From: Eublepharis macularius
Lineage: Eukaryota > Chordata > Lepidosauria > Squamata > Eublepharidae
Length of the DNA stretch: 64,000 bases
Reading direction: 5' to 3'
Assembly: GCF_028583425.1 (NCBI RefSeq)
Contig: NC_072801.1
Location: forward strand, 58,481,766-58,545,765
Shown: positions 3,115 to 62,046 of the stretch, one piece after another
Layout of the letters: each line of letters starts with the position of its first letter
Numbering within the stretch: position 1 is the first letter of the stretch
Position numbers and translations under genes: made by a program
The notes under the pieces: model-generated
What the model was told of the DNA's origin: nothing
What the model saw: the letters and a program-made list of their open reading frames with translations, nothing else
Database searches by the model: none

Positions 3115-6100
3115 ATGAGGCCGTCTGTAACTTTGGCCCCCCTGATTATCCTTATCCTGACTGATCTGCCGCCTTCAGTTGGCCAGGAAAGGACTCTACG
3201 CTTCGTTACATTGGTACATGGATTGGGGAGACATGCCCAGGCTGGGACGCTTCGGTTCTCTGGGAATGGAGGAGGGCTTAGCACCTTAGCGCAAAAGAGA
3301 GTTCCTGGTAGGGACGGGACTGTGTGGAAATTAATGGATTTCTGTAGGAAAGACTGGGAGCGAGGGCTCCTGGATTATTTGGAACATGAGTGAAGACCCA
3401 GGGTATTGGTAAGCTGCAGAGAAATGATCAACCTGACAATCAACTGGGCAATGAGAGGGTCAATATATTGCCAAGGGGGTCCAGTGTGTCTCTGTATGCT
3501 CTGCACATTTCACCTACAATGCTTAATTGATTGACTGGACTAATATAGCCTCCCCCAAATCATTAGGTAAGTATTCTTCCCTATCTTTCTGTCAATTTGA
3601 ACGAAAGTTTCTTACAAAGCCTCTGCACATGATTGGATTTTGCCTTGCAAGGGTGTAGCAATCTATTGGGTGGGGTGGGGGAGTGAAACACAGAGAGGAG
3701 AGGAAAAGAGAGAAGGTAAGAGGACAGATAGTAAAGGACACGTTATATGAAAGTTCTCATTTTACAGGTGAAAGGGTTTTAGGTTTAGAAAGGCTGAAGG
3801 TCAAAGGCCTTGTGAGTTAAGAGTCAAGGAGTTGTTGTTTCCTGAGTAGTTGGTGATTTCCTTACATCCTTTTCCTTCCTCCTCAGGTGTATCGCCATGG
3901 TGACCGATCCCCTTTGGGCACCTACCCCACAGATCCCCACAAAGCTGCAGCCTGGCCCAAAGGCTTCCAGCAGCTCACTGAGGTAGACTCTAGAGAGGAC
4001 TGGATTGTTTGTGTTAATTTGTTCTCATCAATGTGTGTGAATATGATCCATGCCTCACCCCAGATTCCCATCTTTCCTTTGTGTTAGAACACCCTATGCT
4101 GATGGGTGATGATGTGTGTATGTGTAGATTTCAGTACTTTTCATTCCTGGTGTACTATTTCCCCACTTTCCCTACTACAGGTAGGTATCTTACAACAGAA
4201 GATACTGGGACGTTTCCTCAGGGAAAAATACACTGGATTTTTGAGTGCTTCCTACAAACCACAGGAGGTAAATAGATCTTCTCATAACATAGCTTTGATC
4301 TTCTCATAATCCTTAAATCTACCTAACTGCATCAATGTACCCCCTTGTTCAAATACAGGGCCTGAAAGACTGACCGAGGCGCATGTTGCTGTTGCTGCAG
4401 CGCTGCCCTTTAATTTCTCTCCTTTGTTGTTGCTGTTGCTTCTATATAGCTACCAGGTCACTGCTGATTTATGGTAGTGAGAAATATTGCTGCCTTGTAG
4501 AATTTCTTTTGCAGTCTATTTTTGGATAGTTCTGCCCCAAAACACAGGTTTAGCTATAGCTATTATTCTGTGGTTGTTAAATGAAAACTCTTTATTCAGA
4601 GACAATATACCTATGAATACCAGCGACTGGGAAGGTATTCCAGAATGAAGTTTGTTCTGGATCTTCACCATGTCAAGTAGCTAGACTATACCCAAGTGAC
4701 ACTGCAATAAATCAGGGCAAAACAAGAAGCAACTGTGGCAAATATTGGGAGTTTAAACCTGGATTAGCTCCTGTCATGTAGAAAGAGGGAGATGGTGTAT
4801 GTATCCAGTTTCCCTTCAAATACAGGAGCTCAGAAAAGAAGACAAGTGTGTGGGGGGATCAGAATGTGGGGTTTAGTATTCCCCTTTTGTTGTGAAAGTT
4901 GGACCACCACCACTCTTGTGTTTGTGATTGGTGAGAGCCAGTTTGCTATAGTGGTTAAGAGCACGGTACTCTAATCTGGAGAACCAGGCTGGATTCCCCA
5001 CTCCTCCACTTGAAGCCAGCTGGGTGACCTTGGGTCAGTCACCGCTTCTAGGAGCTCTCTCAGCCCCACCCACCTCACAGGGTGATTGTTGTGAGGATAA
5101 TAACAACATACTTTGTAAACTGCTCTGAGTTGTCCTGAAGAGTGGTATATAAATTGAATGTTGTTATACTCACATTAGTTTCACCTTTAATTAACCTTTG
5201 AAGTGCCGCAGAACTCGTCTTTGAGACCTCTGGCACTAGACCAAATTTCCTTCCTTAAAACACCCATACACAAAAGGAGTCTCCATAAAATTTCTAAAAT
5301 AACTCATAATTTTGCTTTTCATAATCCAAACTGCTTTATAACTTGACTAATCAAAGTACATGCAGCCTTCCTGCCAGATATTAGGACTTGGGGGGAGGAA
5401 GCTCCTATTCTTGTGACCTGCAAGGGATTACACAAAAATGAGTTTTTAAAAAAACAATCGACTGGGTACAATACAGATGTATGACAGGTTGTGTTTGAGT
5501 TGGTGGTCCACAAGTGCTGCAGGCCTATCCTATTTTCCAGGGTTTTTTTTTTCCTGACAAGGCTCCTATGTCTTTAAGCTGTTGCCTCATGGATGGAAAT
5601 AGCAACAAAAGAATTCATTTACATTATGGAGGTGGAGACAGAAAAAAGCTGTTCCTGTCCTGCATCTTCCTGTCATGGCAAGCCCTACCCAAAATAATGG
5701 GCAAACCCTCCAGCTTCCCTATTTTCTCCTCAGGCCAGCCAGGAACTTCTGCTGGATCCTATAATATTGTTGCATCTGATTAAACAAAAATTGTTTGGGG
5801 AAGAGTACAAGTAAATAAAATTGGCTATGAATCAGAAAATCCTCAATTCAAAAGTCACCTCTCATGAACTTGGTTCCGCCATATGAGGATAATACCAATT
5901 TACTTCAATATTTTGTATGGATGACAATTTATGCAAAGTTCCTTGAATACTATAAGACTAACAAAATTCGAGATAGTGTATGAGCTTCTGTGAGCCATAT
6001 AGCTCATTTCTTCAGATTATATATTGCACTAAATATCACTATATCTAATAACTGTGGCTGGACATCATTTCAATCATGAAAGCTATCTACAGTCAAGGTA

Positions 6101-61900: not shown

Positions 61901-62046
61901 TCTCTTCTCCACCGCTCGCCAGGCACAATACTATGGGGAGATCTTCCTTGGGACGCCAAAACAGAAGTTCACTGTCGTCTTTGATACTGGGTCTTCCAAC
62001 TTGTGGGTGCCCTCCTCCAAATGTTGCCTGACACATCTGGCATGCT
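55999..62046 (+). CDS. NAPSA: Napsin/cathepsin D-type aspartic protease, first three exons (partial)
   Basis: Pepsin-family aspartic protease of the secretory/lysosomal route. Exons: 55999-56063 (signal peptide, [17 protein letters not shown]), 58765-58912 (propeptide, starting [11 protein letters not shown] and ending HNYMD) and 61923-62046 (start of the mature enzyme, [12 protein letters not shown], then the first catalytic motif [11 protein letters not shown]). Phases 2, 0 and 1 match the cathepsin D exon layout, and exon 3 ends inside the AC-W codon as in cathepsin D. The next exon, expected to start near HHKY, is not in the last 1.95 kb, so the gene continues past the window. The sequence alone is about as close to cathepsin D as to napsin A. 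The symbol rests mainly on ACP4 as a near neighbour, since NAPSA and ACP4 share human 19q13.33. A squamate cathepsin D-like paralogue is the main alternative. Confidence 0.75.
57815..57995 (-). mobile_element. tRNA-derived SINE of the GCATCTGCTTTGC type, reverse
   Basis: GTTAGTATTGTCTACTCAAA, CTCAGGTAGAGGTCTTTCAC and GATGTTCTACCACTGAACC. Confidence 0.72.
58268..58478. mobile_element. Penelope-like head-to-head pair
   Basis: Reverse unit (CCAGTAGCACCTATAAGAC ... CATGAGCCACAGCTC) followed by a forward unit (GTCTCACGAAAGCTTATACG ... ACACGGCTACCCATCATGAT). Located in intron 1 of the aspartic protease gene. Confidence 0.68.
59078..59706. mobile_element. 629-bp hAT-like element with internal tandem units
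   Basis: Left end TAGACATGGGCACAAACC, right end GATTTGTGCCTACCTCTA, with a perfect 8-bp duplication GTCAGGAC (59070-59077 and 59707-59714). The interior holds about three diverged units of roughly 115 bp, each with GACAGCCTCCTTCTCCTGC and AGCGGCAGGAGAA motifs. Located in intron 2 of the aspartic protease gene. Confidence 0.9.
60402..60605 (+). mobile_element. tRNA-derived SINE
   Basis: CCTGGCATAATGGATAAAAT, GCCAGGTTTGAATCC, GGGTGACCTTGGATACTC and CATAGGGTTGTTGTGAGG; ends in GGATTAAAAAATG. Confidence 0.7.
60611..60870. mobile_element. CAGGGC-ended hAT-like MITE, copy 4
   Basis: Same termini; flanking 8-mers AGCACATA and AGCGCATA agree at 7 of 8 bases. It landed directly behind a tRNA-derived SINE (60402-60605), in intron 2 of the aspartic protease gene. 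Confidence 0.9.
61010..61225. mobile_element. Diverged TAGGG-type MITE
   Basis: GGGGATGCCAACTCCGGGAG ... AAAGCAGCCATTTTCTCCAT ... ATTGGCAATCCTAGG. In intron 2 of the aspartic protease gene. Confidence 0.6.

Follow-up and report, generated by a model that had tools for sequence, protein, structure and literature searches.

A stretch of 64,000 nucleotides on contig C12 of Eublepharis macularius (C12:58481766-58545765, hereafter the window) carries a complete nine-exon gene of the PACSIN family that very probably represents a fourth vertebrate PACSIN, for which we use the name 'PACSIN4', an early whole-genome-duplication sister of PACSIN3 that was lost in mammals. A preliminary description of the window had placed a PACSIN gene here between genes of the ACP4 type and the cathepsin D/napsin type and read it as a whole-genome-duplication copy of PACSIN3. 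The arrangement was found as described, and the proposed origin is supported by the sister position of the gene in a phylogenetic tree and by paralogous blocks within the same assembly (2.24 Gb in 72 contigs).

The gene extends from 37442 to 51473 of the window on the forward strand and can be read from start to stop through exons with compatible phases, all introns being of the GT-AG type, into a protein of 406 residues. Exon 1 (37442-37501), in phase 0 and followed by a GT donor, contributes 20 residues to the gene model. The F-BAR domain starts in exon 2 (38528-38684) and continues through exon 3 (41373-41608), exon 4 (42266-42427), where two residues are inserted, and exon 5 (43362-43537). 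Exon 6 (44995-45115) holds the end of a 17-residue segment, exon 7 (47509-47606) encodes a short linker, and the SH3 domain is divided between exon 8 (51011-51105), which lacks the acidic EWSDEE segment, and exon 9 (51358-51473), which closes with 11 residues and the stop codon. Note that the intron between exons 6 and 7 contains a tandem repeat with a unit of 123 bases in 1.8 copies (46315-46542).

As evidenced by profile searches, the N-terminal F-BAR region matches Pfam FCH (PF00611) with 63 bits against a cut-off of 27.8, and the C-terminal region matches the SH3 families PF14604/PF00018. Among PDB entries, full-length PACSIN2 aligned end to end (E-value 1.8e-122), and for PACSIN1 and PACSIN3 the F-BAR and SH3 chains were matched as well. 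The YPANYVE core of the SH3 domain is the same as in human, including the position of P437 in PACSIN1, the end of the F-BAR domain keeps a stretch of 13 residues, and the net charge of this domain, +6, stands at the top of the family range (+1 to +6). The wedge loop in exon 3 is hydrophobic, with L and F at the positions of I125 and M126 of PACSIN1; a wedge-loop role of M126 is described in the accessible part of PMC3517540. The linker is short and contains neither the acidic EWSD segment nor an NPF motif. The unusual F-BAR start FWMPSHFHSS, to which the preliminary description had drawn attention, is correct and exists only after splicing, as FWM closes exon 1 and PSHFHSS opens exon 2. PSHFHSS takes the place of the F-BAR start xGNY(K/R)RT, of which the letters G, N, Y, R and T show no exchange in any of the ten further PACSIN/syndapin sequences of our alignment, that of fly among them. 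We treat xGNYKRT as a conserved motif and know of no published definition of the family that makes use of it.

Searched against the whole genome, the window protein gave 36 matches, of which 23 belong to four multi-exon PACSIN loci; these and all further genome counts are lower bounds. Eight of the 23 lie on C12, in the window itself, and five each on C2, C5 and C16. Of the rest, one is a damaged copy of an exon on C3, and 12 at other places cover the SH3 end only. By comparison with PACSIN1-3 and by their position in the tree, the loci on C2, C5 and C16 are PACSIN3, PACSIN1 and PACSIN2, respectively, and the F-BAR domain of the window protein is 50% identical to PACSIN3, 45% to PACSIN1 and 43% to PACSIN2 of the same genome. 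The PACSIN3 on C2 retains an EWSDED linker and is 72% identical to human PACSIN3.

A maximum likelihood tree was calculated from 11 sequences and 284 F-BAR columns and has the topology ((PACSIN1,PACSIN2),(PACSIN3,window)). The pair of PACSIN3 and the window gene received 90.2 in the Shimodaira-Hasegawa-like approximate likelihood ratio test (SH-aLRT) and 89 in the ultrafast bootstrap (UFBoot), the PACSIN3 clade without the window gene 95.2 and 97; with the human PACSIN3 row dropped, support for the pair was 87.9/86. The preliminary description had named a tree with this gene inside the PACSIN3 clade, and no other PACSIN3 in the genome, as the outcome that would speak against it, and such a tree did not appear. 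The gene is accordingly not the PACSIN3 orthologue, as it stands outside that clade and the block of DDB2, ACP2 and NR1H3 lies on C2.

Seven topologies were compared by the approximately unbiased (AU) test on three data sets, namely F-BAR, F-BAR plus SH3 (SH3 columns being present for 6 of the 11 rows), and F-BAR without the human PACSIN3, and p values are given here in this order. Placement with the PACSIN3 clade yielded 0.953, 0.945 and 0.952, while placements with PACSIN2 (0.0003, 0.0013, 0.0027), PACSIN1 (0.0055, 0.0045, 0.0030), the same-genome PACSIN3 (0.041, 0.0096, 0.039) or the mammalian PACSIN3 (0.035, 0.0091, 0.035) were rejected. At 22 diagnostic sites one residue is common to the three PACSIN3 rows and a different one to the six PACSIN1/2 rows, and here the window protein has the PACSIN3 state ten times and the PACSIN1/2 state twice. 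At four of the ten the fly protein has the PACSIN1/2 state, so that the state shared with PACSIN3 is derived. At the two sites with the PACSIN1/2 state the fly agrees as well, as expected if the lineage of the window gene was already separate when the PACSIN3 clade diversified.

The genomic context points in the same direction. A separate PACSIN3 beside ACP2, DDB2 and NR1H3, proposed earlier as a check, is present on C2, where SPI1 (78.03-78.06 Mb, forward), NR1H3 (78.316-78.331 Mb, reverse), ACP2 (78.366 Mb, forward), DDB2 (78.380-78.399 Mb, reverse) and PACSIN3 (78.473-78.482 Mb, forward) follow one another; within C2:78.40-78.60 Mb, the flank of PACSIN3, queries for DDB2, ACP2, NR1H3 and others gave no match even at an E-value of 1, and these genes are located just upstream. 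On C12 we find NR1H2 (47.75-47.76 Mb), POLD1 (47.785-47.799 Mb), SPIB (47.824 Mb), ACP4 (58.486-58.496 Mb) and the window PACSIN (58.519-58.533 Mb), all on the forward strand, and the succession of a forward ACP gene and a forward PACSIN gene is common to both blocks. We take the set on C2 to be that of human 11p11.2 and the set on C12 to be that of human 19q13.33, in agreement with the human locations given in the preliminary description. DDB2, said to be absent from the interval, indeed had no match in the window at an E-value of 1e-3, and all six of its matches in the genome are on C2, while 12 of 14 POLD1 matches fall on C12, the other two being weak and on C1. The LXR pair was searched with NR1H3 as single query and the SPI pair with SPI1. 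Among the 74 LXR matches, the DNA-binding exon reached 82% identity on C2 and 78% on C12, other exons 51-96%, and matches outside these two contigs at most 66%. The ohnolog pairs were named by similarity and neighbors, and NR1H2 and SPIB in particular from the adjacent POLD1 and from score. On this sequence evidence the window gene appears to sit in a paralogous block with the further ohnolog pairs ACP2/ACP4, LXR and SPI on C2 and C12.

Several observations weigh against an early origin beside PACSIN3 or against a working gene, and other explanations have to be judged by them. The branch leading to the window gene measures 0.81 substitutions per site, compared to 0.11 for the same-genome PACSIN3, so that long-branch effects are possible; ten of the 22 diagnostic sites show neither state; in each of the three data sets the only placements rejected by the Shimodaira-Hasegawa (SH) test were those with PACSIN1 and with PACSIN2; and on C12 the NR1H2/POLD1/SPIB group is separated from ACP4 and PACSIN by 10.7 Mb. 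One alternative is an older split, in which the gene would stem from a PACSIN lineage in a basal position to the vertebrate PACSINs, or to PACSIN1 and PACSIN2, instead of being the twin of PACSIN3 from the two rounds of early vertebrate genome duplication (2R). The AU test was borderline for a sister position to PACSIN1+2 (0.043, 0.059, 0.061) and did not reject a basal one (0.172, 0.166, 0.182). A basal placement would nevertheless arise from attraction of the long branch to the fly outgroup, the maximum likelihood tree and the diagnostic sites favor PACSIN3, and the pairs ACP4/ACP2, NR1H2/NR1H3 and SPIB/SPI1 predict a pairing with PACSIN3, and we regard the older split as unlikely. A recent duplication of PACSIN3 within one lineage, with insertion next to ACP4, would explain why PACSIN3 is the closest paralog in the F-BAR domain, and a DNA-level copy of an exon of the window gene itself did reach C3, so that such events occur in this genome. 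On F-BAR alone this placement is rejected neither by the SH test nor by the Kishino-Hasegawa (KH) test, which gave 0.06 for a position inside PACSIN3 and rejected it only once SH3 was added. The AU results, however, make a young copy improbable, as grouping with the same-genome or the mammalian PACSIN3 is rejected with and without the human PACSIN3 row, and the same-genome PACSIN3 is nearer to its human counterpart than to the window gene. By our arithmetic, a copy inserted at random would come to lie no farther than 24 kb from ACP4 with a probability of 2e-5, the target being about 48 kb out of 2,237 Mb, even before the order and orientation of ACP2 and PACSIN3 are required, and we rate this origin slightly below the older split. 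The converse assignment, with the window gene as true PACSIN3 and the gene on C2 as something else, has nothing in its favor beyond shared descent and is refuted by the tree and by the positions of DDB2 and LXR on C2: the C2 gene adjoins DDB2, ACP2 and NR1H3, its linker preserves EWSDED, and with the PACSIN3 of human and mouse it forms a clade (97%) to which the window gene does not belong, and we attach next to no probability to it.

The same caution applies to the question of whether the gene is alive, for which the evidence comes from the sequence of one genome. Apart from the very long branch and the loss of the conserved F-BAR start, the window protein has changed 23 of the 83 residues that are the same in all ten other PACSIN/syndapin proteins; in the same leave-one-out count the fly protein loses as many, the nine others none or one. 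Of 30 always-basic F-BAR positions 20 stay basic and ten do not, and membrane binding may be weakened because of these ten missing basic side chains. A further argument for decay comes from the copy on C3 (C3:168952900-168954400), which corresponds to intron 1, exon 2 and intron 2 of the window gene (38189-38768) over 585 columns at 80% identity: exon 2 differs from it by 17.8%, not less than the introns (17.1%). This copy has an 11-base deletion and stops, according to our reading has lost its acceptor, and retains the ancestral base for Tyr where PSHFHSS has Phe. A decaying pseudogene without function is nevertheless a doubtful description of the window gene, and about as improbable as the older split, since unlike the C3 copy it preserves 406 codons without a stop and every splice site. 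In comparison with the same-genome PACSIN3, non-degenerate sites are changed far less (156/528, 29.5%) than four-fold sites (48/74, 64.9%, which is near saturation). Of the 26 differences between the window and the C3 copy in exon 2, 12 could be polarised by the three paralogs, nine falling on the C3 copy and three on the window, a weak asymmetry (one-sided p about 0.07), and 14 are ambiguous.

The three genes recognised in the window, the ACP4-type phosphatase, the complete PACSIN and the start of the protease, are all on the forward strand. The phosphatase (3887-13733), for which C12 also shows a His_Phos_2 match, was traced by tblastn exon matches with approximate limits 3887-4003, 4172-4270, 6411-6554, 9648-9785, 11020-11109, 12295-12414 and 13593-13733, the signal-peptide exon lying outside the model. 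It was compared, like the protease, in tblastn bits with human queries. Summed bits were 347 for ACP4, 307 for ACP2 and 253 for ACP3, and ACP4 was the top match in 5 of 7 exons, ACP3 leading at 3887 and ACP2 at 13593. The one compared exon of the ACP gene beside DDB2 on C2 shares 81% of its residues with ACP2, 63% with ACP3 and 60% with ACP4. Since that gene is ACP2, the window phosphatase is not, and the reassignment from ACP4 to ACP2 that would have spoken against the preliminary description did not come about. Judged by similarity among the ACP matches on C2 and C12 (of 11 in the genome), it is apparently of the ACP4 type, closer to ACP4 than to ACP2 or ACP3, with a separate ACP2 in the genome. 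At the other end, an aspartic protease gene of the cathepsin D/napsin group sets in with the exon that carries its first catalytic DTGSS (61920-62045, by tblastn); the gene runs past the window, with more exons of this family downstream on C12 up to 58566307. In a comparison of these two only, CTSD scored above NAPSA in all five exons (66/65, 42/36, 90/65, 40/31 and 47/43 bits), so that the label napsin rests solely on chromosome context. The linkage with napsin and NR1H2 invoked in the preliminary description thus holds in part: NR1H2 is on the same chromosome, but about 10.7 Mb off, and the protease is nearer to CTSD. In the remaining gaps (1-3000, 13.9-37.3 kb and beyond 51.5 kb), open reading frames of at least 70 residues, judged by eye and not by profile scan, so that a small gene could be missed, revealed only frames resembling repeats or long interspersed elements (LINEs) and the protease exon. 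One of these, a 323-residue frame at 33218-34186 on the forward strand, resembles the end of a LINE reading frame and has a similar counterpart on C2.

Elsewhere in the genome, the SPI query detected a fourth ETS match on C8 (105028314-105028511, reverse), 59% identical to SPI1 residues 195-260 and with one TGA in the matched frame, besides SPI1 on C2, SPIB on C12 and a SPIC-like gene on C9; it may be a further paralog that mammals lack, or else a pseudogene. An LXR/FXR-type receptor (126724364-126744903) lies on C5, the chromosome of PACSIN1, with 66% identity in one exon for the DNA-binding domain and 41% in one for the ligand-binding domain, and another nuclear receptor of this type on C9.

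For the favored origin as a fourth PACSIN, a plausible course of events would be that the early genome duplications of vertebrates doubled a block with SPI, LXR, ACP, DDB2 and PACSIN, that one copy kept SPI1, NR1H3, ACP2, DDB2 and PACSIN3, and that the other kept SPIB, NR1H2, ACP4 and the fourth PACSIN and lost DDB2; mammals would subsequently have lost the fourth PACSIN. This loss is deduced from the three mammalian PACSINs counted in the accessible part of PMC9285741. We infer that the gene is expressed and that its product dimerises, acts on membranes and has binding partners. Most likely it would act like PACSIN3, as an F-BAR homodimer that scaffolds membranes and inserts through the wedge loop, and its SH3 domain would recruit dynamin and actin nucleators, the latter being partners of PACSIN SH3 domains. 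According to the portion of PMC9285741 at hand, the SH3 domains of PACSIN1-3 bind dynamins, and the NPF motifs of PACSIN1 and PACSIN2 bind EHD proteins. Lacking NPF, the fourth PACSIN cannot bind EHD proteins through this motif, and because of the far shorter linker its autoinhibition and regulation probably differ. These features suggest a membrane scaffold similar to PACSIN3 that would recruit partners through its SH3 domain and be autoinhibited in a different way.

We think it likely, if less so than the origin of the gene, that the vertebrate ancestor had four PACSINs and that the fourth, a fast-evolving and linker-poor F-BAR/SH3 protein with a role of its own, has persisted outside mammals, at least in this genome, and has been overlooked. 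That it escaped attention would follow from its loss in mammals and from the matching bird region, which is hard to assemble. If true, a fourth member completes the 2R quartet of PACSINs and offers a natural experiment on which duties of PACSIN3 were shared with the copy gone from mammals. TRPV4 is one object of these duties. Others concern muscle caveolae (PMC5716666) and the notochord (PMC2780292), as far as the accessible parts of these papers go. The F-BAR domain would also seem to tolerate the absence of the acidic linker and the loss of a start that is otherwise nearly invariant. In the titles and opening lines of abstracts covered, with most subscription journals outside their scope, no description of a fourth vertebrate PACSIN (PACSIN4 or syndapin IV) or of a PACSIN ohnolog was found, a hint that the gene may be new to the family; an automatic annotation such as 'PACSIN3-like' may exist already.

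According to the available sections of PMC9285741, vertebrates, with mammals, birds and amphibians mentioned by name, possess three PACSIN genes; zebrafish has six as the result of a duplication of its own. The zebrafish pacsin duplicates resemble the present case in being extra PACSIN genes gained through genome duplication (PMC2780292, PMC9285741, both in the parts accessible), but are attributed to the fish genome duplication, with a single member in the PACSIN3 branch according to the accessible part of PMC2780292. With PACSIN1 and PACSIN2 (syndapins I and II) the window protein shares the domain architecture, the SH3 core and the position of the wedge loop, but it differs in its lower F-BAR identity and in the absence of NPF and of a long linker, and the AU test rejects sisterhood with either. 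From PACSIN3 (syndapin III) it is set apart by an F-BAR identity of only one half within the same genome, by PSHFHSS for xGNYKRT, by the missing EWSDEE linker and by its location on another chromosome. In spite of these differences it is PACSIN3 that it resembles most, with F-BAR and SH3 domains and no NPF, exon borders that are alike by eye, a sister position in the tree, and an ACP gene adjoining in the same order and orientation.

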